DNA of 64,000 nt from Methylobacterium organophilum (GTDB taxonomy: Bacteria > Pseudomonadota > Alphaproteobacteria > Rhizobiales > Beijerinckiaceae): assembly GCF_022179465.1 (NCBI RefSeq), contig NZ_BPQV01000006.1, forward strand, positions 186,001-250,000, in the 5' to 3' direction. Position numbers and translations under genes: made by a program. The notes below the pieces were generated by a model. That model saw only the letters and a program-made list of their open reading frames with translations, was not told where the DNA came from and did not search any database. This document shows, piece after piece, positions 40,370 to 58,692 of the stretch (position 1 is its first letter; each line of letters opens with the position of its first letter).

Positions 40370-40462
40370 GGCAAGGGTCTCGCGGGCCGCAACGAAAGGA
40401 GCGGCGGCACGGGTTTTTTATCGCCACGCAGGCGGAATTTTCGTCTCGATGCTTCTCATTGG

Positions 40463-40487: not shown

Positions 40488-40512
40488 GCACTCAACATCA
40501 CATCGGAATAAA

Positions 40513-41242: not shown

Positions 41243-42916
41243 CTACATGTTCGGGTAGTTCGGCCCGCCCGGGCCCTCGGGGGTGACCCAGGTGATGTTC
41301 TGGTTGGGATCTTTGATGTCGCAGGTCTTGCAGTGGACGCAGTTCTGCGCGTTGATCTGGTAGCGCAGGCCGTCGCGGGCGGAGGCGTCCTCCACCCATT
41401 CGTAGACGCCGGCCGGGCAGTAGCGGCCGGAGGGGCCGCCATAGACGTCGTGCTCGGAGCGCTTCTGGAGCTCGCTGTCCGTCACCTTGAGGTGAGGCGG
41501 CTGGTCCTCCTCGTGGTTGGTGTTCGAGAGGTAGACCGAGGAGAGCCGGTCGAAGGTGAGCTTGCCGTCGGGCTTCGGGTAGGTGATCGGCGTCACCTCG
41601 GAGAGCGGCTTCAGGCAGGCATGGTCCGGCTTGCCGTGTTTGAGGGTGCCGAACAAAGAGGTGTCCGCGAGGGCATTGGTCCACATGTCGAGGCCGCCGA
41701 GCCCGACCCCGGCCAGGGTGCCGTATTTCGACCAGAGCGGCTTGACGTTGCGCACCGGCTTGAGGTCGCGCCCGATCGCGCTGCCGCGCCAGCCCTCCTC
41801 GTAGGCGGTCAGCTCGTCGCCCTGACGGCCCGCCGCGATCGCCGCGAAGATGGCGTCGGCCGCCTGGATGCCGGACAGGATCGCGTTGTGCGAGCCCTTG
41901 ATGCGCGGCACGTTCACGAAGCCGGCCGAGTCGCCGACCAGGCAGCCGCCGGGGAAGACGAGCTTGGGCACCGATTGCCAGCCGCCCTCCATGATGGCGC
42001 GCGCGCCGTAGCCGATGCGCTTGGCCCCCTCGAAGGTCTCGCGGATCATCGGGTGGGTCTTGAAGCGCTGGAACTCCTCGAACGGCGACAGGGTCGGGTT
42101 CTCGTAGTTCAGGTGCGTGACGAAGCCGACCGAGAGCAGGTTGTCGTCGAAATGGTAGAGCCAGGAGCCGCCGCCGGCCTTGTTGGGCAGGGGCCAGCCC
42201 ATGGTGTGCTGGACGAGGCCGGGCTCGAACTTCGCGTCGCTGAGCTGCCAGAGCTCCTTGATGCCGATGCCGTATTTCTGGTGGTCGCTGTGGCGGTTGA
42301 GCTGGAAGCGCTCGATCAGGGTCTTGGTGAGCGAGCCGCGGGCGCCCTCGCCGAAGACCGTGTATTTGGCGCGCAGCTCCATGCCGCGGGTGAAATCGGC
42401 GCGCGGCGCACCGTCGCGGCCGATGCCGAGATCGCCGGTGGCGATGCCGGTCACGGCGCCCTTGTCGTCGTAGAGCACCTCGGAGGCCGGGAAGCCCGGA
42501 TAGATCTCGACGCCGAGGCCCTCCGCCTTCGCGCCCAGCCACTTCACCGTGTTGGAGAGCGAGCCGACGAAGTTGCCGTGGTTCGACAGGAGCTTGGGAA
42601 AGAACAGGTTCGGCAGGCGGACGCCGCTGTTCTTGGTGAGGTAGAGGAACTCGTCACGCTCGACCGCGGTCTTGAGCGGGCGTTCGGGATCCGTGCGCCA
42701 GTCGGGCAGCAGGGCGTCGAGGCCGATCGGGTCGACCACGGCGCCCGACAGGATATGCGCGCCGACCTCGCCGCCCTTCTCCACCACGACGACGGAGATC
42801 TCCTCGCCCTTCTCCGCGGAGAGCTGCTTGAGGCGGATCGCGGCGGCGAGGCCCGCGGGCCCCGCACCCACCACCACCACGTCGAAATCCATCCCCTCGC
42901 GTTCGGGAAGCGCCAT
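41243..42916 (-). CDS. Electron-transfer flavoprotein-ubiquinone oxidoreductase
   Basis: 557 residues, full length for bacterial ETF-QO. N-terminal FAD site DVVVVGAGPAGLAAAIRLKQ, then GAHILSGAVVDPIGLDALLP, DLGIGRDGAPRADFTRGMEL, FPGGCLVGDSAGFVNVPRI, and the C-terminal 4Fe-4S binding region with YCPAGVYEW and NCVHCKTCDIKDPNQNITWV. It passes electrons from ETF, reduced by flavin dehydrogenases such as dimethylglycine or sarcosine dehydrogenase, to ubiquinone at the inner membrane. It is the last gene of the seven-gene operon, 35 bases after the oxidase; it is normally a solitary housekeeping gene, so its inclusion here is notable. Confidence 0.95.
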   Translation of the reverse strand: MALPEREGMDFDVVVVGAGPAGLAAAIRLKQLSAEKGEEISVVVVEKGGEVGAHILSGAVVDPIGLDALLPDWRTDPERPLKTAVERDEFLYLTKNSGVRLPNLFFPKLLSNHGNFVGSLSNTVKWLGAKAEGLGVEIYPGFPASEVLYDDKGAVTGIATGDLGIGRDGAPRADFTRGMELRAKYTVFGEGARGSLTKTLIERFQLNRHSDHQKYGIGIKELWQLSDAKFEPGLVQHTMGWPLPNKAGGGSWLYHFDDNLLSVGFVTHLNYENPTLSPFEEFQRFKTHPMIRETFEGAKRIGYGARAIMEGGWQSVPKLVFPGGCLVGDSAGFVNVPRIKGSHNAILSGIQAADAIFAAIAAGRQGDELTAYEEGWRGSAIGRDLKPVRNVKPLWSKYGTLAGVGLGGLDMWTNALADTSLFGTLKHGKPDHACLKPLSEVTPITYPKPDGKLTFDRLSSVYLSNTNHEEDQPPHLKVTDSELQKRSEHDVYGGPSGRYCPAGVYEWVEDASARDGLRYQINAQNCVHCKTCDIKDPNQNITWVTPEGPGGPNYPNM

Positions 42917-42951
42917 CGTTCCGGAAGTCCCCTGTTCGTCGCCTGCGCCGG

Positions 42952-44082
42952 TCAGCGTCCGGCTGCCCAGGCCGGCAGATCGGCGGCGCTGCGCTCTCCC
43001 GCGATGACCCGGGCGACGCCCTCACCCATCAGAGGACCGAACTTGAAGCCATGCCCGGAACAGGCGCTGAGCACGTAGCCTTTCGCTCCGATCGCCTTGG
43101 CGATGAACGCCTCGTCCTCCGTGACCGTGTAGAAGCACGCCTTGCGCTCCAGCACCGTGTACCGGTCGAAATCCCGGTAGGAGAGGCGTGCCGCGGCATA
43201 CAGGCGGGCCACGTCCTCGTCGGTGGCGAGCCGGTTCCCGTCGGGATCGCCCTGGCGCGTGAATTGGTGATCGCCGAGCTTCAGACGGGTACCGGGCCGG
43301 GGCGGCAGGGTATAGGTCCCGCTCTCTAGGCCGAGATCGATGAAGATCGGCGCGCGTGCCCAGGCATCCGCGAGCTCGACCGGCGGCGCCACGAAGGCCA
43401 CGGCCTGACGGGAGGCGACGGCGACGCCCCGGAGGTCCGGCACGAGGCGATCGACCCACGCGCCCGCGGCGACGACCACGGCGTCCCCGCGATGCACCTG
43501 TGCGCCGACCCTCACGCTGGCCTGCTCCGCATCCACCTCCGTGACCGGCGAGCCCGGATGGAAGCGCACGCCCCGAGCGGCGAGGTGGACCACGAGATCG
43601 GTGAGGATCCGGATCGGGAACAGCATGCCCGCGCCATCTGCCTCGTAGGCGCCGGTGACGCCCTCGGGCTCGATCATCGGATAGCAGTCCGCGAGAGCGC
43701 CGAGGGGAATGTCGCGATAGCCGATTTCGAGCTCGTCCATGCTCGTCCGGCTCCCCTGGAACCACGTGACGGGCTCGCGCATCAGCACCACGAGAGGCAG
43801 CGCCTCGAAATGCCGGACGCCGAGATCGGACCAGAGCGCCTCGTAGGCCGCGAAGGCCTCCGGCATCAGGCGTGCGTAGCCGGGGAAATCGCCGTAGGCG
43901 TGCCGCGTGATGCGGTGCTCGTCGTAGGACGAAGCCATCGCGTGCGGGATCTGTCCCTGCTCGAACACCTCCACGGAGAAGCCGCGCCGGACGAGGGCCC
44001 AGGCCGTCGACAGGCCAGCGATGCCGCTGCCCACGACCAGCACCTTGCCGCGCCGGGCCGAGCCCTGCGGTTCCTGTATCAT
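42952..44082 (-). CDS. Monomeric sarcosine / N-methyl-amino-acid oxidase
   Basis: 376 residues from ATG 44082. N-terminal dinucleotide fold KVLVVGSGIAGLSTAWALVR; MASSYDEHRITRHAYGD is the flavin-contact loop of monomeric sarcosine and N-methyltryptophan oxidases; Cys316 in ERKACFYTVTEDE occupies the position of the covalent-FAD cysteine. The C-terminus has SACSGHGFKFGPLMGEGVAR. The enzyme would oxidatively demethylate a secondary N-methyl amine, giving formaldehyde and H2O2. Sixth gene of the operon, 35 bases after the preceding gene. Confidence 0.9.
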   Translation of the reverse strand: MIQEPQGSARRGKVLVVGSGIAGLSTAWALVRRGFSVEVFEQGQIPHAMASSYDEHRITRHAYGDFPGYARLMPEAFAAYEALWSDLGVRHFEALPLVVLMREPVTWFQGSRTSMDELEIGYRDIPLGALADCYPMIEPEGVTGAYEADGAGMLFPIRILTDLVVHLAARGVRFHPGSPVTEVDAEQASVRVGAQVHRGDAVVVAAGAWVDRLVPDLRGVAVASRQAVAFVAPPVELADAWARAPIFIDLGLESGTYTLPPRPGTRLKLGDHQFTRQGDPDGNRLATDEDVARLYAAARLSYRDFDRYTVLERKACFYTVTEDEAFIAKAIGAKGYVLSACSGHGFKFGPLMGEGVARVIAGERSAADLPAWAAGR

Positions 44083-44117
44083 CGCGCTCTCTTTCGCTGA
44101 AGAAGGGGTCGGGGATC

Positions 44118-45290
44118 TCAGGCCGCCGCTGCGGCCGTCGGCGTGAGCCAGCCCTGGCGCTCGCGCCAATCGGGGGCGAGGTTGCGGAAGCGGTGCAGGC
44201 CGAGCTTCTCGATGTCGGTGAACGAGCAGCGCCCGTCGAGGACGAGGTCGCGGATCGCGTGGCCGCTGGCCGGCGACAATCCGAACCCGACGCCGGACAT
44301 GGTGCAGACCGTGACGTTGCCGGGATCGGCGGGCCGGTCGATCACCGGACGCCCATCCGGCGTGTTCTCGATGATGCCGGCCCACGAGCGGATGACGCGG
44401 ACATGGGCCGCCTTCGGGAACAGGTCGGCGAGGCGCCGCGACAGGTTGGCGAGGAGGGGCGAGCTCGGACGGGCGAACGGGCCGTCCGGCTCCACGTCGA
44501 GCCATTCATGCGGGCCGCCGCCATAGGCGAGGTTGCCGCGCAGCGTCTGACGCCCGTACAGGCCGTTGCCGTCGCAGCCCCCGATGCGCATGAGCGGCAG
44601 GGGCTCGGTGACGATCATCTCGGCGCGGGCCGAGGCCAGGGGCAGCCGGATCCCGGCCGGGGCCAGCAGCGCCTCGCTCTGCGGTCCCGCGGCCACCACG
44701 ACGTGGTCGCATGCGATGAAGCCCCGCGGGGTCTCGACGCCTGCGGCCTTGCCGCCGCGCAGGACGATGCGCTGAGCCGGGCAGTGCTGCAGGATGCGCC
44801 CCCCGAGATCCTGCAGCGCCCAGGCATAGGCCTGCACCGTGCGCTGCGGGTTGGCATGGCCGCCGCCATGGACGTGGATCGCGCCGACGGCGTTGTCGCC
44901 GGCAAGCGGGATCGCTTCGCGGCAGGCTTGCGGGTCGAGTTCGTCGACGCGGATCCCGTGTTGGCGGATGATCTCGGCGATGCGCCGGTACTGGGCCCAT
45001 TGCCGGTCGGTCACCGCGAGGATGATCCGCTCGCGGCGGTACTCGGTGGGGTAGCCGAGAAGCGCGTCCATCTGCGGCCACAGTCGCTGCTCCTCAAGGA
45101 AGAGCGGGCTCTGGTAGTGGGAGCAGCCGCCGCCGTTCCGGCCGGAGGCCTCCCAGCCGACCACCCCCTTGTCGAGGACGACCACGTCGACGCCAGAGCG
45201 GGCGAGCCACCAGGCGGCGCTGAGACCCGTGACGCCGGCACCGACGACGACGACGGATGCGCCGGAGGGCAGAGCGATCTGTTCGTTCAT
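44118..45290 (-). CDS. FAD-dependent amino-acid/opine dehydrogenase, small subunit (OoxB/HcnC-like)
   Basis: 390 residues from ATG 45290. FAD motif ASVVVVGAGVTGLSAAWWLA, then GVVGWEASGRNGGGCSHYQS, the DAO-family ARAEMIVTEPLP strand and C-terminal GRPVIDRPADPGNVTVCTMS followed by GFGLSPASGHAIRDLVLDG. It belongs to the D-amino-acid oxidase/DadA superfamily. Its start lies eight bases after the OoxA-like gene, the same pairing found in opine oxidase (OoxA/OoxB), hydrogen cyanide synthase (HcnB/HcnC) and heteromeric proline/amino-acid dehydrogenases. The subunit would hold the substrate-oxidising FAD. Confidence 0.88.
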   Translation of the reverse strand: MNEQIALPSGASVVVVGAGVTGLSAAWWLARSGVDVVVLDKGVVGWEASGRNGGGCSHYQSPLFLEEQRLWPQMDALLGYPTEYRRERIILAVTDRQWAQYRRIAEIIRQHGIRVDELDPQACREAIPLAGDNAVGAIHVHGGGHANPQRTVQAYAWALQDLGGRILQHCPAQRIVLRGGKAAGVETPRGFIACDHVVVAAGPQSEALLAPAGIRLPLASARAEMIVTEPLPLMRIGGCDGNGLYGRQTLRGNLAYGGGPHEWLDVEPDGPFARPSSPLLANLSRRLADLFPKAAHVRVIRSWAGIIENTPDGRPVIDRPADPGNVTVCTMSGVGFGLSPASGHAIRDLVLDGRCSFTDIEKLGLHRFRNLAPDWRERQGWLTPTAAAAA

Positions 45291-45298
45291 GGTCCGTC

Positions 45299-46906
45299 TC
45301 ACAGGTGCATGTTGCCGCCGAGATACTCGGCCTCGCGGGGCGTCCCGATATCGGCATAGGGCACCCATTGGGTCGGGATGCCGAACCAGACGTCCCAATG
45401 CTCGCGCATCGCCGGGATCTCTTCGATGCGGCCGAGCAGGCCGAGGGTCAGGGGGCGGACCGGCGCGCGGTAGCCGGCGAGGGGCACGCCGGCGAGGTCG
45501 CGGTCGCCGCCGATCGCCAGCATCATCGCCACCTGCTCCCGGCAGCGCCGAGCCTGGCAGGGGCCCATGCAGGCGCGGGTCAGCCGCTTGATCTGGTCCT
45601 GGTTCACGGGACCGTCACGCAGGAGGCTGCCGAGGTCGCGTTTCTCGACCGCCGCCGGGGCAGGTCCGAGATAGCGGGGCGGCCGCACACCCAGGAGATC
45701 GCCGCGGGAGACCTCTTCGCATTGGCAGGCCAGAACCTCGGGCGAACCGACCGCGAGCAGAGCCCGCATCCAGTCGAGCCGGTAGGGGTGACGGTCCCGC
45801 GTCGGCCGGACGGCGGCGGGCTCCGTCGCCTCGACCGTGCGTCCGAGGGAGCGAAGCGCAGCGCGCGCGGCGAGCCGGCCCTGTGCCTCCGCCGGTGCGA
45901 TCTCCCCCGGGGACGCGTCCGACAGGCCGGCGCAGTCGCCCGCGACGAAGACCTCCGGCCGCGACGTCGCCGCACCATCGAGCTGGGGCACGTAGCCGCC
46001 GCGGGCGCCGTCGAATTCGAGCGTCGCGCCGACGACGTCGAGGAGTTCGACGTTCGGGATCCTGTCGACCGCGAGGCAGATGGTGTCGCAGGCGATCCGC
46101 CGCTCCGCGCCATCGGGGCCGCGAAGCACCGCGCCGGTCGTTCCGAACGGCCCGCGCTCGGCGGCGCGGATCACGTGACCGGTCAGGATCTCGACGCCGC
46201 GGGCGGCGAGCCCGGCGCAATCGGTCTCGGGCGCCTCGCGCACCTCGACCAGGGCGCAGACGGTGAGGCCGCGGGCGAGGGCCAGTTCAGCCGTCTGCAC
46301 GGCGAGGCTGCCGCTGCCCAGGATGAGGATGCGCCCGCCCTCGAAGGCGTCGTAGCGGGCGAGAAGCGCGTGCAGGGCCTGGGCGCCCATGATGCCGGGC
46401 TGATCGACGCCCTCGAAGAACAGGACGAGGTCGCGCGCGCCGGCGGCGAGGATCAGCCGATCGAAGCCGCACAACCAGGTGTCCGTCTCGTTCGCGAGGC
46501 CGACCACCGGTCCGGGGAGCGTCTGTGCGCCGGGACCGGGCGCGAAGGCGCCCCAGGCCTGGACGCCGAGGGCGACGTCGACGCCCGCCTCGAACGCCTC
46601 TTCCAGGCGCGGATTGCTGGAGAAGACCTGCTCCAGCATCCGCTCCGTGTTGTGGACCGCGGCCCCCGCCCGCCCGCCGTAGAACAGCGGCACGTCCATG
46701 CCGATGAGCTCGCCGGACAGCGGGTTCTCGTCCACCAGCTTGACCTGGGCACCGTGGGCGGCCGCCTCGATCGCCGCGGCGACGCCGGCGGGGCCTGCGC
46801 CGACGACCAGGATCTCGACATGCTCACGGGCAGCGGGAAATTTCCCGTGGAGCGATTTCAGGTCGACCTGCGCGGCAGGAACCCCGGCGATGATGGTGTC
46901 GTCCAT
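45299..46906 (-). CDS. Amino-acid/opine dehydrogenase, large subunit (OoxA/HcnB-like)
   Basis: 535 residues. N-terminal FAD-binding fold VEILVVGAGPAGVAAAIEAA, second nucleotide fold GGRILILGSGSLAVQTAELA, and PEVFVAGDCAGLSDASPGEI. The C-terminal quarter has cysteine motifs CQCEEVSRGDLLGV (about residue 407) and CMGPCQARRCREQVA (about 456), the BFD-like 2Fe-2S site typical of OoxA/HcnB. It would pass electrons from the partner flavin subunit toward the respiratory chain. It follows the PLP gene by 15 bases and precedes OoxB by eight. Confidence 0.88.
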   Translation of the reverse strand: MDDTIIAGVPAAQVDLKSLHGKFPAAREHVEILVVGAGPAGVAAAIEAAAHGAQVKLVDENPLSGELIGMDVPLFYGGRAGAAVHNTERMLEQVFSSNPRLEEAFEAGVDVALGVQAWGAFAPGPGAQTLPGPVVGLANETDTWLCGFDRLILAAGARDLVLFFEGVDQPGIMGAQALHALLARYDAFEGGRILILGSGSLAVQTAELALARGLTVCALVEVREAPETDCAGLAARGVEILTGHVIRAAERGPFGTTGAVLRGPDGAERRIACDTICLAVDRIPNVELLDVVGATLEFDGARGGYVPQLDGAATSRPEVFVAGDCAGLSDASPGEIAPAEAQGRLAARAALRSLGRTVEATEPAAVRPTRDRHPYRLDWMRALLAVGSPEVLACQCEEVSRGDLLGVRPPRYLGPAPAAVEKRDLGSLLRDGPVNQDQIKRLTRACMGPCQARRCREQVAMMLAIGGDRDLAGVPLAGYRAPVRPLTLGLLGRIEEIPAMREHWDVWFGIPTQWVPYADIGTPREAEYLGGNMHL

Positions 46907-46921
46907 TGCGGGCTTGCTCCT

Positions 46922-48181
46922 TCAGACGGCGTCGAGCGCCTGGACGAGGTCGGCGATCAGGTCGTCGGCATGCTCGATGCCGACCGAGATGCGCAGGGTG
47001 CCGTCATCGACGCCGACCTCCTCGCGCCGGTCGCGTGGGACCGAGTAGTGGGTGGTGGTGGCGGAGTGGCAGATCAGGGTCTCGGTCCCGCCGAGGCTGA
47101 CCGCCATGCGGATCAGGCTCAGCCGGTCGAGCATGCGGAAGGCCTCGGCCTCCCCGCCGTGGATGCGGAAGGAGAAGGTCGAGCCGGTGCCGGAGCATTG
47201 GCGTGCCAGGAGCGCCCCGGCCGGCGTGTCGGGATCGGCATGGCCGAGGAAGGAGACCGAGCGGATCTTGGGGTGCAGGCTCAGGAAGTCTGCGATCTTC
47301 CGGGCATTCGCGCAGGCCCGCTCGGTGCGCAGGTGCAGCGTCTCGAAGGAGCGCAGCAGGCCGGCGCAGACATGCGGGTCCGGGTGGCTCCCGAGCAGTG
47401 TGCGCAGCTTCTTGAGGCGATCGATCAGCACAGCCGATCCGCTGACGCCGCCGGCCAGGAGGTCGCTGTGGCCGCCCGCATATTTCGTGAGCGAGGTGAT
47501 GCAGAGGTCGGCTCCGTGCTCCAGCGGCGACTGGAGGAAGGGCCCGAGGAAGGTGTTGTCCACGCTGATGAGCGGCCGGCGCCCCTGCTTCAGCCGGACC
47601 GCCTCGGCGATCTCCGAGAGCAGTGCGATGTCGCTGACGGAGCCCGTCGGGTTGGCCGGCGTCTCGCAGTGGATCAGCCCGAGCGAGCCGGTCTGGAGCA
47701 CGCGCTCGGCCTCGGCTCGGATCGCGGCCCCGTCGAGGCCGTCCTTGAACCCGAATGCCTTGATCCCGAAGGCGGCGAGTTCCCCGTAGAGGAGGCCGTC
47801 GGTGCCGCCGTAGAGCGGGCGAGAATGCAGGACCGTGTCGCCGGGCCGCAGGAAGGCGAGCATCACGGCGCTGATCGCGGCCATGCCGCTGCCGAACACC
47901 GCTGCGTCCGCCCCCTTGTCGAGGGCGGCAAGACGGCGCTCGACCATGGTCAGGTTCGGATGCCCGAGGCGGGCATAGATGTAGCCCGGATCCTCGTCAT
48001 CCGGCATCGGCACGCCGTCGAAATAGGCGCGGTGTACGTCCTTCGCGTGCTGGGCCGAGCGGTAGAGATAGGTCGAGGAGGGAAAGATGGGCGGCTTGGC
48101 GGCCCCTCGATAGGCGTGCGGGTCGTAGCCATGCGTGATCGTCACCGTTTCGGGACGCAGGATGCGATCTGGAGGGCTCAT
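46922..48181 (-). CDS. Cystathionine gamma-synthase/lyase-family PLP enzyme
   Basis: 419 residues. The PLP lysine lies in LCITSLTKYAGGHSDLLAGG (about residue 230). Other landmarks: YIYARLGHPNLTMVERRLAA, AVFGSGMAAISAVMLAFLRP, HCETPANPTGSVSDIALL and AVSLGGTETLICHSATTTHY. The family includes cystathionine lyases and methionine gamma-lyase, which eliminate or replace gamma substituents of amino acids. Start 48181 overlaps the stop of the upstream reductase by ATGA, indicating translational coupling. Its presence in this operon suggests a substrate with a gamma leaving group, such as a methionine- or homoserine-type skeleton (inference). Confidence 0.92.
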   Translation of the reverse strand: MSPPDRILRPETVTITHGYDPHAYRGAAKPPIFPSSTYLYRSAQHAKDVHRAYFDGVPMPDDEDPGYIYARLGHPNLTMVERRLAALDKGADAAVFGSGMAAISAVMLAFLRPGDTVLHSRPLYGGTDGLLYGELAAFGIKAFGFKDGLDGAAIRAEAERVLQTGSLGLIHCETPANPTGSVSDIALLSEIAEAVRLKQGRRPLISVDNTFLGPFLQSPLEHGADLCITSLTKYAGGHSDLLAGGVSGSAVLIDRLKKLRTLLGSHPDPHVCAGLLRSFETLHLRTERACANARKIADFLSLHPKIRSVSFLGHADPDTPAGALLARQCSGTGSTFSFRIHGGEAEAFRMLDRLSLIRMAVSLGGTETLICHSATTTHYSVPRDRREEVGVDDGTLRISVGIEHADDLIADLVQALDAV

Positions 48182-49233
48182 CACGATACTTTCAGGGTGA
48201 CGGGGCCTTGCGGATGGGCGCAGCAGGCGAGGATGTCCCCGTCCGCGATCTCCTCGTCGGAGATGCCGCCGGCATGGGTCATGCTGACCTCGCCGGAGAC
48301 CTTGCGGACGCGGCAGGTGCCGCAGATCCCCTGGCGGCAGGAGTTCGGAATCCGCACGCCGACGCGCAGCGCGGCGTCGAGCAGGCTCTCGCCCGACCGC
48401 ACCATCGCCTCGCGGCCGGAGGGCAGGAAGCGGGCAAGCTGTTCCGCCCCCGCCGCCTCCGAGGGCAGGACAGCCGGCGGCGCGGCCGTCGGAGCTTCGG
48501 TGCCGAAGCTCTCCTGATGGAAGCGGGCTGTCGCCGCCCCGGTCGTCCGGTGCGCGGCGGCGACGGCGCTCATGAAGGCGCCGGGCCCGCAGGCGAAGAC
48601 CTCCGCGTCGCGAAGGCTCGGAATCAGCGTGGTCCAGAACCCGGCTTCCGGCCGCCCGGCCAGGATGCCGGGCTCGGGGGCGCCGCGCGTGACGATCCAG
48701 TCGAGCCGCCAAGTGCCGATTCGGTGGGCGAGGTCGGTCAGCTCCTCCCGGAAGAGCAGGTCCTCACGGGTGCGCCCCACATGGACATGGTGAACGGGCA
48801 CCCGGAGGTCCCGGTCGGCGAGCCAGCGCAGGATCGCGGCCATCGGCGTCGCTCCGCTGCCGGCCGAGACCAGCACGAGCGGACGGTCCGGCGCCGCCGC
48901 CAGCCGGAAGCTGCCGGCGGGCGGACGCGACTCCAGACTCATGCCCGGCGCGAGGCTGTCGTGCAGCCAGCGCGTCGCCCGCCCGCCTGCCTGAGCCTTG
49001 ATGGTCAGGTCGACGCCGTCGCCGCGCAGCGGCGAACTCGCGATGGTGAAGCTGCGCCAAGCCGCTTCGTCCCCGAGCGGTACCGCGATGGTGAGGAACT
49101 GCCCCGGATCGAACACGATCCGGGACCCCGAAGCCGGCACGAAGCGGAACGTCTTGACGCCCGGCGCCTCGTCGCGGATCGCCGCGCAGACGAGGCGATC
49201 TCCGCCACCCCGCCAGATGGCCTGCATGTCCAT
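48181..49233 (-). CDS. Rieske oxygenase reductase with C-terminal 2Fe-2S ferredoxin
   Basis: 350 residues. An FAD-binding fold (FDPGQFLTIAVPLGDEAAW, RSFTIASSP) is followed by the NAD domain (LVLVSAGSGATPMAAILRWL, EVFACGPGAFMSAV) and a C-terminal plant-type 2Fe-2S domain, CRQGICGTCRVRKVSGE with the last Cys in DILACCAHP. The order FNR-ferredoxin matches reductases of glycine-betaine and stachydrine demethylases (GbcB-like). It feeds electrons from NAD(P)H to the oxygenase 24 bases upstream. Confidence 0.9.
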   Translation of the reverse strand: MDMQAIWRGGGDRLVCAAIRDEAPGVKTFRFVPASGSRIVFDPGQFLTIAVPLGDEAAWRSFTIASSPLRGDGVDLTIKAQAGGRATRWLHDSLAPGMSLESRPPAGSFRLAAAPDRPLVLVSAGSGATPMAAILRWLADRDLRVPVHHVHVGRTREDLLFREELTDLAHRIGTWRLDWIVTRGAPEPGILAGRPEAGFWTTLIPSLRDAEVFACGPGAFMSAVAAAHRTTGAATARFHQESFGTEAPTAAPPAVLPSEAAGAEQLARFLPSGREAMVRSGESLLDAALRVGVRIPNSCRQGICGTCRVRKVSGEVSMTHAGGISDEEIADGDILACCAHPQGPVTLKVS

Positions 49234-49257
49234 GGTTCGCCCGCCGCCGAGGGTTGC

Positions 49258-50466: not shown

Positions 50467-50499
50467 GGGTGTCTCCGGAATGTGCGGAGACGTTGCCAC

Positions 50500-50733
50500 A
50501 AGCTTCCCGACTTAGAAAAACTCCATTTTGGAATGTCGGTATCGAATTTAAGCAATTGCAAGATGCTATCGCAAAATTGAGGATGCTTATCAGTAAAGCT
50601 CATTTGCCAGGCAGAATTTCACTGCATGGCGGCAAATAGTGCAGCGCCTGCCCTTAAGTTGGGCGATGCAGGCATCTTGCTTGTCCTCCGCAGGAGGCAG
50701 GCCGGTTGCGCCTCGCCGCACTAAGAGGATTCG
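50500..50733. promoter_or_regulatory. Divergent promoter region of the catabolic operon and LysR gene
   Basis: This AT-rich 230-base gap separates the Rieske oxygenase (minus) from the lysR gene (plus) and must drive both directions. Near 50563-50592 two similar blocks GATGCTATC and GATGCTTATC lie 18 bases apart, and AATTTAAGCAATTG (around 50547) contains a T-N11-A type partial dyad; LysR regulators bind such sites. This is positional inference. Confidence 0.4.
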
Positions 50734-51672: not shown

Positions 51673-51700
51673 CAGCACGAACCGAGACAGGGGGAGCGGT

Positions 51701-53320
51701 ATGTTCAGGTTGAAGACGTTGAGCGGTCGCCCGCAACATCCGGCGATCGAGGATCTCTGCCACAGTCTCGACAGGGGGCTGATCGGGCGGCGCGACTTCC
51801 TGCGCACCGCGGCCTGGCTCGGCGTGTCCGCGGCGAGCGCCGCCGCCTTCGCGGGGCGGACGACGGTCGCCGCGGCGGCCGAGGCGCCCAAGCGCGGCGG
51901 CAGCGTCCGGTTCGCCTGTCAGATCCAGGAGATGCAGGATCCGGCCGCATCCACCTATTTCGAGGCGGCCAACGTCTTCCGGAACGTGATCGAGTATCTG
52001 ACCAAGGTCGATGCCGACAACGTCGTCCATCCCTATCTCGCCGCGAGCTGGGATCCTTCGGCCGATCTGAAGACCTGGACCTTCCGGCTGCAGCCGAACG
52101 TCAAGTGGTCGAACGGCGATGCCTTCACCAGCGCGGATGTGGCGGCCAATTTCCGCCGCTGGATCGGGCCGGCCTCGAAATCCTCCAACAAGACGACCTT
52201 CGCCGCCCTGCGGGACATCGAAATCCTCGGGCCGCTCGAACTGCGCCTGCATCTCGACCGGCCCCTGCTCGCCCTGCCGGAGATGCTCTACGCGCCGAAC
52301 ACGCCGATCATGCACCGCGACTTCGAGAAGATGGGCGGGGATTGGAGCAAGAACCCGATCGGCACGGGCCCTTATCGCTTGGCCGAGTTCCAGGTCGGAC
52401 AGAAGGCGACCCTGGTGCGGCGCACCGAATATTGGGGCGAGATGCCCTATCTCGACGAGATCCGCTTCATCGACCTCGGCACGGATATCTCGACCCATCT
52501 CGCGGCCCTGGCCGCGCAGCAGGTCGACATGCTCTACCGCATCAACGTCTCGGATCTCGACCTCGCCAAGCGCCTGAGCGACGTGCAGATCCTCACCGGC
52601 CGCGCCGCGCAGACCCCGGTGATGCGCATGCAGGTCGACCAGAAGCCCTTCGACGACATCCGCGTGCGCCAAGCCGTGGTGCTGGCCTGCGACAACAGCC
52701 GCATCCTCGACGTGGCCATTCGCGGGGCCGGCGTGATCGGCGACAATTGCCACGTCGCTCCCTTCCAGCCCGAATACGCGCCCGTTGCCGCGCCCAAGCG
52801 CGACGTGGAGAAGGCGAAGCACCTGCTGCGGGAGGCGGGCCATGCGAACGGGCTCGATCTCGCGATCGCCGTCGGCAACACGCAGGGCGTCTGGGAGCAG
52901 AACACGGCCCAGGTGCTGCAGCAGCAATGCGCCGAGGCCGGCATCCGGGTGAAGCTCGACGTCATGCCGGCCGCGCAGTACTGGCCGATCTGGAACAAGG
53001 TTCCGTTCGGGCTGACCTACTGGGCCCACCGCCCCCTCGCCGTGCAGACCCTGGACCTGGCCTATCGCGGCGGCGCGGCCTGGAACGAGACGCATTTCGC
53101 GGATCCGGCCTTCGACGCAGCCCTCGACAACGCCATGGGCATTGTCGATCCGCAGGCCCGCAAGGCCGCTATGGTCTCGGTCGAGACGATCCTGCGCGAC
53201 GCGGCGCTCATGGTGCAGCCGTTCTGGATGAACAAGTACACGGCGGTCGCGAGCCGTGTCCGCGGCTACGCGCTCAATCCGAGCGACTGCTTCGATCTCC
53301 ACAAGGTCTGGCTCGCCTGA
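51701..53320 (+). CDS. ABC transporter substrate-binding protein, dipeptide/opine type, Tat-exported
   Basis: 539 residues. A twin-arginine signal is clear: GRRDFLRTAAWLGVSAASAA (Arg30-Arg31). The mature protein is SBP_bac_5: KRGGSVRFACQIQEMQDPAA, VHPYLAASWDPSADLKTWTF, LQPNVKWSNGDAFTSADVAA and NPIGTGPYRLAEF. It captures peptide-, opine- or amine-sized substrates in the periplasm and hands them to the permeases encoded next. The gene opens the transport part of the operon after lysR. Confidence 0.93.
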   Translation: MFRLKTLSGRPQHPAIEDLCHSLDRGLIGRRDFLRTAAWLGVSAASAAAFAGRTTVAAAAEAPKRGGSVRFACQIQEMQDPAASTYFEAANVFRNVIEYLTKVDADNVVHPYLAASWDPSADLKTWTFRLQPNVKWSNGDAFTSADVAANFRRWIGPASKSSNKTTFAALRDIEILGPLELRLHLDRPLLALPEMLYAPNTPIMHRDFEKMGGDWSKNPIGTGPYRLAEFQVGQKATLVRRTEYWGEMPYLDEIRFIDLGTDISTHLAALAAQQVDMLYRINVSDLDLAKRLSDVQILTGRAAQTPVMRMQVDQKPFDDIRVRQAVVLACDNSRILDVAIRGAGVIGDNCHVAPFQPEYAPVAAPKRDVEKAKHLLREAGHANGLDLAIAVGNTQGVWEQNTAQVLQQQCAEAGIRVKLDVMPAAQYWPIWNKVPFGLTYWAHRPLAVQTLDLAYRGGAAWNETHFADPAFDAALDNAMGIVDPQARKAAMVSVETILRDAALMVQPFWMNKYTAVASRVRGYALNPSDCFDLHKVWLA

Positions 53321-53409
53321 TGCCGTCGCCGGTGCGGCCTGCCGCACCGACCCATGCCCCGAACCCGCCTCCGCCGAACCGCCGGCGGAGCGGCACGAAG
53401 GAATGCCTC

Positions 53410-54405
53410 ATGATGCGCGCCGGCCTGACCCGCCTGTCCGAGATCGCCCTGACGATGCTCGCGGTCTCGTTCACGGTCTACTTTCTCCTCGAACTCGACG
53501 CGGACGATGTGGCCGTGAAGATGCTCGGGCAGTTTTCGACAGCCGCCCAGCGGGTCCAGTGGCTGCGCGAGCACGGCTACGATCAGCCCTTCCTCGCGCG
53601 GTACGTCCAATGGCTCCAGCGCTTCCTCTCCGGGGACTGGGGCCAATCCCTGCATTACCAAGTCCCCGTGTTCGACCTCGTCACGGAGCGCCTCGCCGCT
53701 ACGGCCATCCTCGGCGGGGCGACGCTGGTGTTGATGGTGCCCATCGGCCTCGGCCTCGGCATCCTCTCTGGGACGCGGGAAGGATCCCTCGCCGATCGTC
53801 TCATCTCGGTCTTCAGCATCGTGACGACGTCGGTGCCGGAATTCGCAAGCGCCGTCTTCCTGTCGGGCCTGCTGGTCTTCTGGCTCGGCCTGCTCCCGGG
53901 CGCCAGCACGATGACCGGGGGCTTCTCCCTGCGCGAACTGGTGATGCCCCTCCTCGTCCTCGTCCTCTACGCGGCCGGCTATCTCGCGCGGGTCACCCGC
54001 GCGGCCGTGGCCGAGGTCATGACGGCGCCCTACGTGCGAACCGCCCGGATGAAGGGCGCTGATCCGCGCCGGATCGTCCTGCGGCACGTGCTGCGCAACG
54101 CCCTCGTGGCGCCCGTCACCGTGATCATGCTGCAGATCCCGTGGCTGCTCTCGGGCGTGATCGTGGTCGAGGTCTTCTTCGCGTATCGCGGCTTCGGCTC
54201 GCTCCTCTACGAGGCCGGACTGAACAGCGACATCGACGTGATCGAGGCCTGCGCGATGATCAGCGTGTTCGTCGTCGTCACGACCCAGCTCGCCTCCGAT
54301 CTCGTGAACACGTGGCTCAATCCGCGGACACGGCCCGTCCGCGAGAGACGCCCGGCTGCGACCATCCGCAGGCTCTCCCTTTTGAAGAAGATGGAGGTGG
54401 TCTGA
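53410..54405 (+). CDS. ABC transporter permease, DppB/OppB type
   Basis: 331 residues from ATG 53410, after GAAGGA. A membrane N-terminus (LTMLAVSFTVYFLLEL) is followed by the periplasmic segment and five further helices. The EAA loop reads VRTARMKGADPRRIVLRHVL. First of two permeases; its stop overlaps the ATG of the second (TGATG), so they are translated together. Confidence 0.93.
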   Translation: MMRAGLTRLSEIALTMLAVSFTVYFLLELDADDVAVKMLGQFSTAAQRVQWLREHGYDQPFLARYVQWLQRFLSGDWGQSLHYQVPVFDLVTERLAATAILGGATLVLMVPIGLGLGILSGTREGSLADRLISVFSIVTTSVPEFASAVFLSGLLVFWLGLLPGASTMTGGFSLRELVMPLLVLVLYAAGYLARVTRAAVAEVMTAPYVRTARMKGADPRRIVLRHVLRNALVAPVTVIMLQIPWLLSGVIVVEVFFAYRGFGSLLYEAGLNSDIDVIEACAMISVFVVVTTQLASDLVNTWLNPRTRPVRERRPAATIRRLSLLKKMEVV

Positions 54406-55271
54406 TGCGCGCGCTCCTCGCTCTCCGCCATCGGCCCCTGGGTTCGATCGGCGGCCTCGTCGTCCTGTTCTGGCTGGTTTGCGCCCTGCTGGCCCCCTGG
54501 CTCGCGCCCCACGATCCGCTGCACAGCTTCGTCCCCCTGCAGACACCGCTCTCCCGCGGCTCCGACGGCACGTTCTTCCTTCTCGGGACCGACATCCTCG
54601 GCCGGGACATCTTCGCGCGGCTGATCTACGGCGCGCGCTCCGTGGTGATCTGGTCGGGGCTCGCCACCGGTACCGCCTACCTTCTCGGCATCGCCACCGG
54701 CCTCGTCGCGGGGTTCTATCGCGGTCCCCTCGACCGGGCGCTCTCGTTCGGCGCGAACGTCATCCTCTCCTTCCCCATCCTCGTTCTCTACCTCGTGGTG
54801 ATCACCCGGTTCGGGGCGTCGGGCCTGAACATCATCCTGGCCGTGACCTTCGCGAGCTCGCCGGCGATCTTCCGGATCGTGCGGGCGCTCACCCTCGACA
54901 TGCGCACGCGCGACTTCGTCGAGGCCTCCGTGACCCAGGGCGAGAGCGGGCTGCGGATCATGGCCATCGACATCCTGCCCAACGTCACGGGGCCGCTCGT
55001 GGTCGATGCCTGTCTGCGGCTCGGCTACACGGCGATCACCATCGGCGTCCTTGGCTTCCTCGGACTCGGCCTGCCCCCGCCCACTCCGGACTGGGGCGGC
55101 ATGGTCAACGAGGGGCGCAGCCTCGCCATCGCCTTCCCCCACCTCATCCTCTTCCCCTGCATCGCGATCTCCTCGCTGATGCTCGGCCTCTCCCTGCTGG
55201 CCGACGCCCTGCGCGAGGGCGGCCGAGGGCCGGTCTCGGAAGAGGTGGCCGCCCCCGCCGTGCCGGTCTGA
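54405..55271 (+). CDS. ABC transporter permease, DppC/OppC type
   Basis: 288 residues, overlapping the previous stop by one base. The N-terminal helix GSIGGLVVLFWLVCALLAPW and HDPLHSF, then LGTDILGRDIFARLIYGARS are the OppC pattern; the EAA loop is DFVEASVTQGESGLRIMAID. GFLGLGLPPPTPDWGGMVNE is the usual C-terminal landmark. It pairs with the preceding permease to form the channel. Confidence 0.93.
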   Translation: MRALLALRHRPLGSIGGLVVLFWLVCALLAPWLAPHDPLHSFVPLQTPLSRGSDGTFFLLGTDILGRDIFARLIYGARSVVIWSGLATGTAYLLGIATGLVAGFYRGPLDRALSFGANVILSFPILVLYLVVITRFGASGLNIILAVTFASSPAIFRIVRALTLDMRTRDFVEASVTQGESGLRIMAIDILPNVTGPLVVDACLRLGYTAITIGVLGFLGLGLPPPTPDWGGMVNEGRSLAIAFPHLILFPCIAISSLMLGLSLLADALREGGRGPVSEEVAAPAVPV

Positions 55272-55384
55272 CCCGCCCGGATCTGGGGAGCGCGCCTTCG
55301 GGCCACTCTCCACGCTTGCCCCAACCCGTCAGTGGGGTGGTTCGCCCCACACATTCCTCCCTGCCGTCGAGCCGGAAACGCCCT

Positions 55385-56986
55385 ATGCTGGAGCCCGTTC
55401 TCTCCATCCAAGACCTCACGGTCCGGCTGCCGCGTGGTGCGGACCGACCCTTCGCCGTCGAAGGCGCGAGCCTCACCGTCAACCGAGGCGAGATCGTCTG
55501 CATCGTCGGCGAATCGGGCTCCGGCAAGTCCATCCTCTCGAGCGCCATCATGGGCGCGATCCCGCTCGGTCTCACGGCCGCCGGAGGGCGCATCCTGTTC
55601 GGGGACGAGGACATGCTGCGCCTGCCGGATGAGCGCCTCCGCCGGATCCGCGGCTGCGGCATCGCCATGATCTTCCAGGAGCCGATGGCCTCGCTGAACC
55701 CGGCCATGACGGTGGCCGCGCAGATCGGCGAGATGTTCGAGATCCACGAGCCGACCCTGTCCCGGGCCGAGATCCGAGAGCGCGTTCTCGGCCTCCTGCG
55801 CGATGTGCAACTGCCCGATCCGGAGGCGATGATGCACCGCCTGCCGCACCAGCTCTCCGGCGGCCAGTGCCAGCGCGTGGTGATCGCCATGGCGCTCAGC
55901 CTGCACCCTCGCCTGCTCATCGCCGACGAGCCGACCACAGCCCTCGACGTGACCACACAGGCCCAGATCCTGAACCTCGTCCGCGGCCTGCGGGACCGGA
56001 AGGAGCACGGCATCCTGTTCATCACGCACGATTTCGGCGTCGTCGCCGACATCGCCGACCGGGTGGTGGTGATGCGGCATGGCCGCATCGTCGAGCAGGG
56101 AACGGCAGAAGCGATCCTGAGCCATCCCTCCGATCCCTACACGCGCGCCTTGCTCGCGGCCGTGCCGAGCGGGACGATGCGCCGCGACATCGTCGCGAAG
56201 GGCTATCCGATCCTCTCGGTCCGCGCCTTGTCCAAGCGCTACGGCCAGATGCAGGCGCTCGACCGGATCGATCTCGAGGTGCTCAAAGGCCAGACGGTCG
56301 CGATCGTCGGTGAGTCCGGTTCGGGCAAGAGCACCCTTGCGCGCAGCATCATCCGCCTGATCCAGCCGACCAGCGGCCAAGTCGTCATCGAAGGGCGCGA
56401 CTTCGCGCATCTGAGCGGACGGGAGCTGAACGCGAGCCGGCGCTTCATTCAGATGATCTTCCAGGACCCCTTCGGCTCGCTCAACCCGCAGCGCACCGTG
56501 GGCAGCATCCTGGAACGGGCCGGGTGCCTCGGCGGTCTCAACCGAGCCGAGGCAAAAGCGCAGGCCGAACGCCTTGTGCGCGAGGTCGGCTTGCCGGTTA
56601 CCGTGCTGGCGCGCAAGCCCGGTGCCTTCTCCGGCGGCCAGCGGCAGCGCATCGGCATCGCCCGGGCGCTCGCGATGCGGCCCAAGATCATCATCGCGGA
56701 CGAGAGCGTATCCGCCCTGGACGTGTCGATCCAGAAGCAGGTGCTCGATCTTCTCGACGGTTTACGCGCGCGCACCGAAACGACCATGCTCTTCATCACG
56801 CATGACCTTCGGGTGGCCGCACAGATCGCCGACACCGTCATCGTCATGCGGCGCGGCCAGATCGTCGAAAGCGGCAGCCCGAGCGCGGTGCTCTCGGCAC
56901 CGAAACACGCCTATACCCGCGAACTCGTCGCAGCGATCCCAGGGCGGGCTTTCCACGCGGCGAAGCTGAAGGCGCCGGCCTCCTGA
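55385..56986 (+). CDS. ABC transporter with two fused ATPase domains (DppD-DppF type)
   Basis: 533 residues. Two complete ATPase halves: Walker A GESGSGKS at 42-49 and again near residue 313; signatures LSGGQCQRVVIAMALSLHPR and FSGGQRQRIGIARALAMRP; Walker B LLIADEPTTALD and IIIADESVSALD, where the second has Ser in place of the usual Pro. Such fusions replace separate DppD and DppF subunits and occur in peptide/glutathione-type importers. About 110 bases separate it from the permease. Confidence 0.93.
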   Translation: MLEPVLSIQDLTVRLPRGADRPFAVEGASLTVNRGEIVCIVGESGSGKSILSSAIMGAIPLGLTAAGGRILFGDEDMLRLPDERLRRIRGCGIAMIFQEPMASLNPAMTVAAQIGEMFEIHEPTLSRAEIRERVLGLLRDVQLPDPEAMMHRLPHQLSGGQCQRVVIAMALSLHPRLLIADEPTTALDVTTQAQILNLVRGLRDRKEHGILFITHDFGVVADIADRVVVMRHGRIVEQGTAEAILSHPSDPYTRALLAAVPSGTMRRDIVAKGYPILSVRALSKRYGQMQALDRIDLEVLKGQTVAIVGESGSGKSTLARSIIRLIQPTSGQVVIEGRDFAHLSGRELNASRRFIQMIFQDPFGSLNPQRTVGSILERAGCLGGLNRAEAKAQAERLVREVGLPVTVLARKPGAFSGGQRQRIGIARALAMRPKIIIADESVSALDVSIQKQVLDLLDGLRARTETTMLFITHDLRVAAQIADTVIVMRRGQIVESGSPSAVLSAPKHAYTRELVAAIPGRAFHAAKLKAPAS

Positions 56987-57327
56987 GCCGAGCCTGCGCT
57001 GGCCAAGGAATCGCTCCCGGCGCTTCGCCGCCGGGGAACGCGGCGGGGCGGAGATAGGCTCTGCCCGTCTGCGAAAGATCGACTCGGATGACCATAAATG
57101 ACCGACCGCCGTGGCGGATCGGAAAGAAATGATCGCGCGCTGAGCGCAAAGCCTCCGGTTTAATCGACGCTCGTCCCAATTTTTCGGCAATGATAAAAAG
57201 TCATACCGTTTTAAGGATTTGTTTCTTGGAGCAATTCGATTTTGGATTCTAAATTTTATCGCCAACCGTTTGAATAAAAACAAATCAATACGGAAGGGCA
57301 TAAATCAAAGACTTGGGGTGCTCCGAA
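56987..57327. other. AT-rich leader before the porin gene
   Basis: About 340 bases that become strikingly AT-rich from 57160 onward, in contrast to the rest of the window, and directly precede the porin ATG. It probably contains the porin promoter and an untranslated leader. No coding frame is supported and I could not identify a clear -35/-10 pair or riboswitch. Confidence 0.45.
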
Positions 57328-58692
57328 ATGCAGGACAGGGTCGGTACTCATTGGCTTGCCCGAGCCGTCGTTACAAGCGGCCTCGCCATTCTCGGTAGCG
57401 GCCTCGCGCACGCTCAGCAGCAAGAACTCGACGCGGAGCCGAGCCGCGTGAACCGCGCACAGAGGGTGACCGTCCCCGAACCGCGGCGGAAGAAGATCCC
57501 CGCGTCGGCGCCGAACCCCGTCGCTCCGCTGGCGGCTCCCTCCGTAGTCGACGGGAAATGGACGTTCGGCGGCGCGATCCGCGCCCGAATCGATGCGAAT
57601 TTCGATGCTACGAACGCTCGAACCGGCGCGCCCGATACCCGGAGCTATTTCGGCTTCGACACGCTGATCGTGAAAGCGGCTTACGATTCCAGCACGTTGT
57701 TCGGAGCCGCCCAATACCGCTTCTACGGTGGTGCCTATCCCTACACGCGCGAGTCCGGCTACAAGAGTACTTTTGGAGAGTTCAACTTCCTGCAGTTCGC
57801 CTATGCCGGCGTCAAACTCTCTCCGGAGGATAGCATCTCCGTTGGCCTGCAACAGGTGCCGTTCGGATTGGTGCCTTACTTCAGTACGACGTTTTTCGAG
57901 ACGGTGGGTTTTGTCGCCGGGCTGGAGGAGGTTTACAATACAGGCCTGAAGTTCTCTCACGTCGAAAAGGACTTCAATTACCAGCTTGGTTATTTTCCCG
58001 CAGACGGCGGGAATTACTTCGGCATCAGCCGCGAGGCCTCGCGGTACTCGACCAACGTCGTCAAGGCCGATAGCTACGTGGCAGGTGGCTCCAACAACGT
58101 CGAGCAGCACATGCTGGTCGGGCGAGGCGAGTACACCTTCTTCCGGAACGAGGCCGTAACGGCGACAGTCGGCGCCTCGATCTGGCACTCAAGCATCTAC
58201 AATTACGACACCGGCACTTACGGCTCCAAACAGCAGGAGGCCCTCCATTTCGTCGGGACGTACGGGCCTTGGACCTTGCGTGCGATCGGTGCGCGGGTTG
58301 ATATCGACCCACGGAACCCTGGGGGGCGTAACAGCCTGATCACCATCGGCAGCTACGATGGCTCGTACAATCTGGCAACAAAGGCGTTCTTCTTCTCTGG
58401 AGATGTCTCGTACAAGTTTACGCCGACTGTTGGCCCGTTCACTGAGATTGTGCCCTACTTTAACTACAGCGCATACTACAAGGATCAACGCGCCTACCGC
58501 GACACGGAACGCTACATCGTCGGATCAGCCTGGACGATCCGCAACATCAGCGGCCTTTACGTTTACACGGAAATGCGCATTGGCCGGAATGATCCCTATA
58601 CAGGGGCTGGGCAATACACCCAGGGCCTGGCCGCAGGCGGCGACAACAAATTCAAGAAAAGCTTTTACGTCAACATCGGATATTATTTCTAA
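57328..58692 (+). CDS. Outer-membrane porin following the ABC importer
   Basis: 454 residues from ATG 57328. The signal peptide ends at GSGLAHAQ, followed by a Pro/Arg/Lys-rich segment and a beta-barrel with alternating aromatic strands: WTFGGAIRARIDANFDA, FNFLQFAYAGVKLSPEDSIS, VGLQQVPFGLVPYFSTTFFE, and a C-terminal NIGYYF ending in Phe as outer-membrane assembly requires. It would let the importer substrate into the periplasm (inference from context). A strong hairpin follows at 58811. Confidence 0.8.
   Translation: MQDRVGTHWLARAVVTSGLAILGSGLAHAQQQELDAEPSRVNRAQRVTVPEPRRKKIPASAPNPVAPLAAPSVVDGKWTFGGAIRARIDANFDATNARTGAPDTRSYFGFDTLIVKAAYDSSTLFGAAQYRFYGGAYPYTRESGYKSTFGEFNFLQFAYAGVKLSPEDSISVGLQQVPFGLVPYFSTTFFETVGFVAGLEEVYNTGLKFSHVEKDFNYQLGYFPADGGNYFGISREASRYSTNVVKADSYVAGGSNNVEQHMLVGRGEYTFFRNEAVTATVGASIWHSSIYNYDTGTYGSKQQEALHFVGTYGPWTLRAIGARVDIDPRNPGGRNSLITIGSYDGSYNLATKAFFFSGDVSYKFTPTVGPFTEIVPYFNYSAYYKDQRAYRDTERYIVGSAWTIRNISGLYVYTEMRIGRNDPYTGAGQYTQGLAAGGDNKFKKSFYVNIGYYF

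Follow-up and report, generated by a model that had tools for sequence, protein, structure and literature searches.

A 64,000-nt stretch of the Methylobacterium organophilum genome, called the window below and used as the reference for all coordinates, contains a minus-strand operon of seven genes. They encode a Rieske oxygenase, a reductase, a pyridoxal phosphate (PLP) enzyme of the Cys/Met metabolism family, the oxidoreductases OxA and OxB, an oxidase resembling MTOX and an electron-transfer flavoprotein-ubiquinone oxidoreductase (ETF-QO). The genes for the Rieske oxygenase, the PLP enzyme, OxA and OxB recur together in many other genomes, and the Rieske oxygenases of these operons are set apart by the residue at the position of CntA-203. 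We propose that the operon probably serves to remove three N-methyl groups from a betaine and then eliminate a gamma substituent from the resulting amino acid. To one substrate class, homoserine betaine (N,N,N-trimethylhomoserine) or its glyceryl ether, which is the deacylated head group of the lipid diacylglyceryl-trimethylhomoserine (DGTS), we give an even chance; the head-group form alone is less likely than the class as a whole.

Recurrence of the core and its two marker enzymes

We defined the core as a Rieske oxygenase, a PLP enzyme and OxA all encoded no more than four genes upstream of OxB. Named genomes were scanned with an OxB alignment, and the best 80 of 153 loci, ranked by OxB similarity, were kept, a ranking that favours members of the operon. 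Three loci were dropped from the counts as repeats (L032 of L088, L033 of L123 and L034, nearly, of L119). The core order is found in 62 of the 83 other loci, on a single strand in every case; when at least 4.6 kb is available upstream of OxB, it is found in 59 of 64. Less than 4.6 kb is available in 16 of the 21 loci without the core, most of which are simply cut off, and five have room yet no full core. L120, L127 and L130, which have room upstream, are other clusters. Since the core order recurs, and always on one strand, the gene grouping exceeds chance. An initial annotation, made from the DNA alone, had proposed a catabolic operon with its own regulator and importer and had named neighbourhood analysis as a check; that analysis did not refute the core, and the recurrence supports a co-conserved catabolic core with a regulator and an importer.

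Across 199 genomes of the order, a search with the PLP enzyme identified six relatives that are 59-64% identical to it, and the matches then drop to 50% or less. Among 20 PLP loci taken with wide surroundings, the six of high identity all carry the operon and a divergent LysR gene, and no Rieske, OxA, OxB or Sox gene is present in any of the 14 of lower identity (L020, one of 15 non-operon PLP loci, was left out of this set). Hosts include Sphingomonas, Novosphingobium, Caulobacteraceae, Acidisoma, Methylobrevis, Rhodomicrobium, Rhizobium oryzicola and Arboricoccus. OxB of the window is 63-71% identical to six orthologues and 83% identical to that of Lichenibacterium minor, the closest named record among the best 80 of 153 loci. 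It was matched (E<=1e-120) in only six of 398 genomes drawn across the phylum, and in none of the five other genomes of the window's genus within that draw; the operon is therefore sparse and accessory. In the window's family, six of 60 genomes contain OxB. The order in one of the loci, L181 of genome G927, is Rieske-PLP-OxA-OxB-Sox.

OxA-OxB pairs also occur without Rieske and PLP genes, as in L173, L174, L182 and L183 over the 20 kb read, so that the pair may be a module used in other settings too, perhaps in other N-alkyl pathways. Some of these four pairs and of those in L127 and L130 have transporters and a sarcosine oxidase of their own. The OxB matches of L167 (genome G831) and L169 (genome G082) contain one in-frame TGA each.

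The Rieske oxygenase of the window is the sole PF00848 match in its genome. Its closest solved chains, 3n0q, 3vca and 4qup, include stachydrine demethylase chains, and its best NCBIfam match is the GbcA model NF058607 (441 bits, below the cut-off of 670). This cut-off is a poor discriminator, because it is reached by a copy in none of 21 operon-bearing genomes. PMC7948474 and PMC10952381 assign the Rieske oxygenases of quaternary amines to group V, note two Cys residues next to the iron in some of them, describe E205, C206 and C209 of CntA as a Glu-Cys-x-x-Cys motif beside the mononuclear iron, and give Asn at the position of CntA Tyr203 for the demethylating clade Vb. The group V motif is present as ECYHC in the window and in all 62 Rieske open reading frames (ORFs) of more than 350 aa in the loci. 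The Asn of clade Vb is absent. The window has Gly, in the motif ENGRECYHC, where Stc2 has Asn, and the 59 full-length Rieske oxygenases of core loci have either Gly (30) or Ala (29) at this position; the core loci L055, L079 and L106 contain no Rieske ORF of more than 350 aa and are not among the 59. Outside this set, L078 has Ala, and L120 and L126, whose Rieske genes lie outside the operon order and on the opposite strand, have Tyr and Asn, respectively. Asn is also found in 3n0q and the Stc2 chains.

As an internal control, the GbcA model was run against the 21 operon-bearing genomes (E<=1e-80), and the residue was read in all 20 paralogues, of which 18 have Asn, one Phe and one Ser. Such further Rieske oxygenases are present in 17 of the 21 genomes, and in the other four, including that of the window, the operon copy is the only one. 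The residue at CntA-203 sets the operon enzymes apart. Ala or Gly at this position would, we infer, open the pocket for a side chain larger than that of glycine betaine.

The PLP enzyme scores just above the cut-off of the PRK07049 cystathionine gamma-synthase family model (Table 1), and the cut-offs of the methionine gamma-lyase models are not reached. K233, Y124 and R397, which we take to serve in Schiff base formation, stacking and carboxylate binding as in other fold-type I enzymes, are kept in all 66 operon rows of the alignment. In a quick tree of 89 rows, comprising 66 copies from OxB loci (the window and 65 others, 61 of them in core loci), 15 non-operon enzymes of the PRK07049 type and eight other Cys/Met enzymes, the 66 copies form one clade with a Shimodaira-Hasegawa-like approximate likelihood ratio test (SH-aLRT) support of 95, and both other groups fall outside it. 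At the positions of Cys116, Lys240 and Asp241 (Pseudomonas putida numbering), presumably the active-site residues of methionine gamma-lyase, the operon rows have Gly (65 of 66), Arg (all 66) and Thr (60 of 66). Val361 stands at the position of Glu339 in human cystathionine gamma-lyase. Because the same Gly, Arg and Val are also present in the PRK07049 relatives outside the operon, these residues mark the family and not the operon; near-fixed differences from those relatives include H50, T229 and Y379. The nearest solved relatives are the unassigned 5ijg and 7swh, followed by methionine gamma-lyases. The signature of the enzyme is that of neither an ordinary methionine gamma-lyase nor an ordinary cystathionine gamma-lyase, and its family and gene context suggest gamma-elimination. 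We rejected the idea that its gene is a chance neighbour, since the order recurs and outside copies fall in other clades; it is missing from L078.

Predicted pathway and candidate substrates

The family assignments suggest one role for each enzyme. The Rieske oxygenase is the predicted first N-demethylase, served by the adjoining reductase as its predicted partner; OxA with OxB is the predicted second and the MTOX-like oxidase the predicted third; and the PLP enzyme is predicted to act as a gamma-lyase on the demethylated amino acid. The starting compound would be an imported betaine derived from a 2-aminobutyrate with a substituent at the gamma position. In view of their family and motif, the Rieske oxygenase and its reductase would convert the trimethylammonium group into a dimethylamino group and formaldehyde, OxA-OxB would take off the second methyl group, and the MTOX-like enzyme, or elsewhere a heterotetrameric sarcosine oxidase, would take the third and leave a primary amine. 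Only at that point could the PLP enzyme form the external aldimine; it would then release the gamma substituent as water or glycerol and yield 2-oxobutyrate plus ammonia, after which an E1-type 2-oxoacid dehydrogenase might follow in some relatives. PLP chemistry requires a primary amine, and we therefore read the three demethylations and the lyase as one line.

The genes that vary among the loci bear on several of these steps. Of the 62 core loci, 12 encode an MTOX-like last oxidase and 34 encode SoxA of a heterotetrameric sarcosine oxidase, and none encodes both (0 of 62); where 5 kb is available downstream, one or the other is present in 39 of 48. Two unrelated types of N-methyl amino acid demethylase that alternate are what a third demethylation step predicts. 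A representative of SoxB exceeds its NCBIfam cut-off, SoxA and SoxD match their own models best, below cut-off, and the SoxG cluster has no NCBIfam match and was named by position. A gene related to the GbcB/PaaE-type reductase is found in ten of the 62 loci. One-carbon genes (PurU, AdhC or FghA; one representative of each is above its NCBIfam cut-off) lie near 14, with PurU in 11. The importer beside LysR is of the OpuAC betaine type in six loci, where it is divergent, and of the oligopeptide type in six. The only solved relative of the OpuAC protein at E<=1e-10 is 7yle, labelled as glycine betaine/proline binding, and the permease of this system matches the choline and ProW models, below cut-off. 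An E1-type dehydrogenase (aceE-like, below the aceE cut-off) is encoded near ten core loci. In L051 (8798-13071), a PLP gene of the PRK07049 type directly precedes an E1 gene of the same kind, with a divergent Lrp gene. In the class, matches to the E1 gene occur in 130 of the 385 genomes searched. Of 30 E1-type loci examined, six have a PLP gene of the Cys/Met family no more than about 1.5 kb away, in one case as an 85-residue piece at an edge.

TonB-receptor clusters lie near 26 of the 62 core loci, and clusters of three hydrolase types (Peptidase_S15, PETase/PAF-AH-like and DUF3089) near 17. Both are hints only, since such genes are common in sphingomonads and there is no background rate to compare. 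The TonB receptors score below NCBIfam cut-offs; the names of accessory clusters beyond the approximately 20 proteins run on family models are our reading of the sequence.

The compounds known to be plentiful that combine a trimethylated alpha-amine with a gamma substituent are homoserine betaine and the glyceryl-trimethylhomoserine of DGTS. Cystathionine gamma-lyases can deaminate homoserine, which makes a water or alkoxide leaving group not implausible. PMC9892843 reports DGTS in green algae, lichens, mosses, ferns and some fungi, and PMC10132767 treats it as a phospholipid substitute. According to PMC11711679, a purified algal alpha/beta hydrolase converts lyso-DGTS into fatty acid and glyceryltrimethylhomoserine, and the deacylated compound is therefore a natural product of such hydrolases. 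PMC13403184 and PMC5864184 describe homoserine betaine as an osmolyte of Trichodesmium and as a dissolved metabolite with diel change. We also count in favour of homoserine-type betaines that Lichenibacterium minor is the closest named relative by OxB, which suggests kinship with lichen bacteria.

These findings refine the initial annotation. Its N-demethylation logic is supported, and a gamma leaving group stands as the likely reason for the PLP enzyme, but the sulfur that it suggested is only possible, residues typical of methionine gamma-lyase being absent. The compound that it left undefined stays N-methylated and is narrowed, as a best guess, to homoserine-type betaines. A complete bacterial pathway for the DGTS head group is a further, joint claim, which we put forward tentatively and regard as rather unlikely to hold in all its parts: hydrolases would remove the acyl chains of the lipid, glyceryl-trimethylhomoserine would enter by way of an outer-membrane protein or TonB receptor and an ABC (ATP-binding cassette) or MFS (major facilitator superfamily) importer, the three enzymes would strip its methyl groups, and the dedicated PLP enzyme would split the glycerol ether by gamma-elimination. 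If true, this would be an ether-splitting use of the cystathionine gamma-lyase family and a route by which nitrogen and carbon are recycled from algal, fungal and lichen membranes.

Several observations weigh against homoserine-type betaines. As to the leaving group, no recurring gene for handling glycerol or sulfur was seen among the approximately 20 accessory proteins, singletons excluded, that were run on family models. The window's own importer is of the dipeptide type, not the betaine type, and the solved relatives of its binding protein bind peptides, nickel or, judging by the name of AgaA, an opine. A search of the window's genome at E<=1e-20 found no gene of the E1 type; the E1 and hydrolase genes belong to a minority of loci, mostly of Sphingomonas, and may be neighbours by lineage. 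Neither last-step oxidase was found in nine of the 48 core loci with 5 kb downstream. L090 and L114 keep LysR, PLP, OxA and OxB without a Rieske gene, even by tblastn, and in L078, one of the 16 non-core loci with less room upstream, genes for LysR, Rieske, OxA and OxB are present but none for the PLP enzyme was found. In addition, many loci are close relatives and not independent cases.

Other readings keep some of the chemistry and change the substrate. With methionine betaine or another S-alkyl homocysteine betaine, the same sequence of demethylation and elimination would yield methanethiol and 2-oxobutyrate. The PLP enzyme is indeed nearest, after 5ijg and 7swh, to methionine gamma-lyases, the E1 gene near ten of the 62 loci resembles the partner of that enzyme in P. 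putida, and a Val in place of Glu339 of human cystathionine gamma-lyase fits a neutral side chain. We nevertheless consider a sulfur substrate quite unlikely, because the methionine gamma-lyase residues Cys116, Lys240 and Asp241 are replaced by Gly, Arg and Thr in 65, 66 and 60 of the 66 rows, methionine betaine is nearly absent from the literature searched, and the neighbours scanned or read include no recurring sulfur gene; one luciferase-family monooxygenase adjoins L052. Ordinary breakdown of glycine betaine through dimethylglycine and sarcosine to glycine would need just the three demethylation enzymes, the sarcosine oxidase and PurU, with the PLP enzyme meeting an unrelated need such as methionine metabolism. 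GbcA as the best NCBIfam match of the Rieske oxygenase, its status as sole such enzyme in four of 21 genomes, the window's among them, and the demethylation genes without PLP in L078 all agree with this. It is made improbable by the PLP gene being in place in 61 of the 64 loci with room (the 59 full cores plus L090 and L114), and by the further Rieske oxygenases of 17 of the 21 genomes, where 18 of 20 copies have the Asn motif, against Ala or Gly in all 59 operon enzymes.

The initial annotation had also considered an opine-like compound. Catabolism of an opine or another secondary amine, with OxA-OxB as a dehydrogenase of the OoxA/OoxB type and the Opp-type importer as its carrier, would account for the OoxAB-like gene pair and for the presence of AgaA, which is said to bind agropine, among the solved relatives of the dipeptide-type importer. 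We regard it as very improbable, since a Rieske oxygenase of the quaternary-amine type heads the operon in core loci, and the betaine-type importers (6 of 62) and SoxA-type sarcosine oxidases (34 of 62) weaken it further. A different doubt concerns the reaction itself. Beta-lyases, gamma-lyases and synthases of the Cys/Met family are poorly separated by sequence alone, and the PLP enzyme might carry out beta-elimination or a sulfhydrylase-like gamma-substitution, in which case the end product would not be 2-oxobutyrate. The chance of this seems small, given the E1-type dehydrogenase near ten of the 62 loci, directly after a PLP relative in L051, and given that no recurring sulfur-assimilation gene was seen among the neighbours. 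Ergothioneine, hypaphorine, stachydrine and carnitine were rejected as substrates because none of them would account for a gamma-lyase.

Gene layout, ETF-QO and neighbouring genes

The seven minus-strand genes and the divergent LysR and ABC genes of the initial annotation were found in place as ORFs with matching Pfam or NCBIfam families (Table 1); the assembly amounts to 5.06 Mb in 113 contigs. From the Rieske gene to ETF-QO, the gaps are 24, -1, 15, 8, 35 and 35 bases. The only overlap in the operon, given earlier as ATGA, is in fact the junction TGATG between the reductase and PLP genes, which overlap by one base.

Table 1. Genes of the operon and of the divergent group, with positions in the window
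Feature	Position	Strand	Basis of the assignment
Rieske oxygenase alpha subunit	49258-50466	-	PF00355 and PF00848; betaine-demethylase type, group Vb-like
FAD/NAD/2Fe-2S reductase, GbcB/PaaE type	48181-49233	-	NF058606, 233.5 bits (cut-off 500); Fer2, FAD_binding_6, NAD_binding_1
PLP enzyme, Cys/Met metabolism family, PRK07049 type	46922-48181	-	NF005455, 506 bits (cut-off 504); PF01053
OxA	45299-46906	-	Pyr_redox_2 and SO_alpha_A3; resembles part of sarcosine oxidase alpha / OoxA type
OxB, DAO-family FAD oxidoreductase, OxA partner	44118-45290	-	Family match
MTOX / monomeric sarcosine-oxidase-like enzyme	42952-44082	-	NF008425, 182.8 bits (cut-off 257); PF01266
ETF-QO	41243-42916	-	PF05187, 163 bits; PF21162, 138 bits
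LysR regulator, GcvA type	50734-51672	+	Family models; cluster in 37/62 core loci
SBP_bac_5 substrate-binding protein	51701-53320	+	PF00496, 254 bits; Tat-type signal GRRDFLR, read by eye
ABC permease, DppB/OppB type	53410-54405	+	PF00528
ABC permease, OppC type	54405-55271	+	PF00528, PF12911
Fused double ABC ATPase, oligopeptide type	55385-56986	+	PF00005 twice, PF08352
Outer-membrane-barrel-like protein ('porin')	57328-58692	+	Signal peptide, composition and C-terminal Phe, all by eye

The ETF-QO protein matches both the Fer4_ETF_QO and the ubiquinone-binding domain. The genome contains a second ETF-QO gene (L175:5437-7105, on contig C4 of the assembly), which is 98.56% identical to the operon copy over 1669 bases, a stretch whose limits nearly coincide with those of the coding sequence. 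The flanks are unrelated, and the mismatches concentrate towards both ends and within a single internal patch. Because the identity spans only the coding sequence and the mismatches are clustered, the copy looks like a gene-exact duplication, or one kept alike by gene conversion. No ETF-QO gene was found in the 86 related loci, which rules it out as a conserved part of the operon, and five of 60 family genomes, the window's included, have two ETF-QO matches. We therefore regard the operon ETF-QO as an addition, observed in this genome alone, that may raise electron capacity but does not define the pathway. Accordingly, the dedicated ETF-QO of the initial annotation gives way to one of two near-identical copies.

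The importer genes can be followed beyond the window. Orthologues of the SBP_bac_5 protein in L081, L092 and L093 (56-67% identical) adjoin the same operon, and the DppB/OppB-type permease has counterparts there that are 64-67% identical. The porin-like protein has no match of note in Pfam, NCBIfam or the PDB sequences, and its gene has no tblastn match in the 86 related loci. At E<=1e-20, it was matched in two of 80 family genomes including its own, that is, in one of the 79 others, and a 57% identical paralogue lies on the same contig (G000:C6:327710-328933, L186). The name porin, also used earlier, thus draws no support from family searches and refers to features read by eye.

Just past the porin-like gene are transposase pieces (59159-60376; rve and HTH_21 above cut-off, DUF772 slightly below), which are mobile-element debris at the cluster edge. 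They are followed by an ORF with a LysR substrate-binding domain and no DNA-binding domain (60742-61605) and by a DUF3987 protein (61599-63260). On the other side, directly past the operon end, an EamA-family exporter gene is divergent from an Lrp/AsnC regulator (39446-41001 for the pair); the exporter could be an amino acid exporter, for example for homoserine.

Comparison with known systems

In the open-licence PMC text searched, we found no bacterial gene set for the degradation of homoserine betaine or the DGTS head group, and no description of this operon. Many algae, mosses, ferns and lichens, as well as some fungi, have betaine lipids in their membranes, and homoserine betaine, an osmolyte, occurs in dissolved form in the sea. 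The Rieske oxygenase with Ala or Gly and the operon clade of PRK07049 provide marker genes for metagenomes.

Among known systems, Stc2 and GbcA/GbcB (Rieske group Vb) share with the operon full-length homology, the Rieske and catalytic domains, the ECYHC motif and an adjoining GbcB-type reductase; the operon differs in having Ala or Gly for Asn at CntA-203 and a recurring PLP partner. The breakdown of glycine betaine and sarcosine likewise uses heterotetrameric sarcosine oxidase (SoxA in 34 of 62 loci) and PurU (11 of 62), whereas the operon has OxA-OxB in the place of DgcAB, together with an extra PLP enzyme and a putative gamma substituent.

P. putida reportedly links methionine gamma-lyase to an E1-type dehydrogenase (mdeA-mdeB) in order to use 2-oxobutyrate. 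The PLP family, the E1-type gene near ten of the 62 loci and the joint presence of Lrp, PLP and E1 genes in L051, an arrangement that resembles a methionine gamma-lyase operon, are points in common with that system. In contrast, the operon enzyme belongs to its own clade of PRK07049 and lacks the residues of the methionine gamma-lyase type. The octopine/nopaline oxidase OoxA-OoxB has the same architecture as OxA (Pyr_redox_2 and SO_alpha_A3) and OxB (DAO). Here, however, the pair stands beside a Rieske oxygenase and a third enzyme of the N-demethylase type, and this context argues for N-methyl substrates over opines despite the matching architecture. We regard the operon as a variant of known betaine-demethylation pathways that makes an open catabolic question testable.

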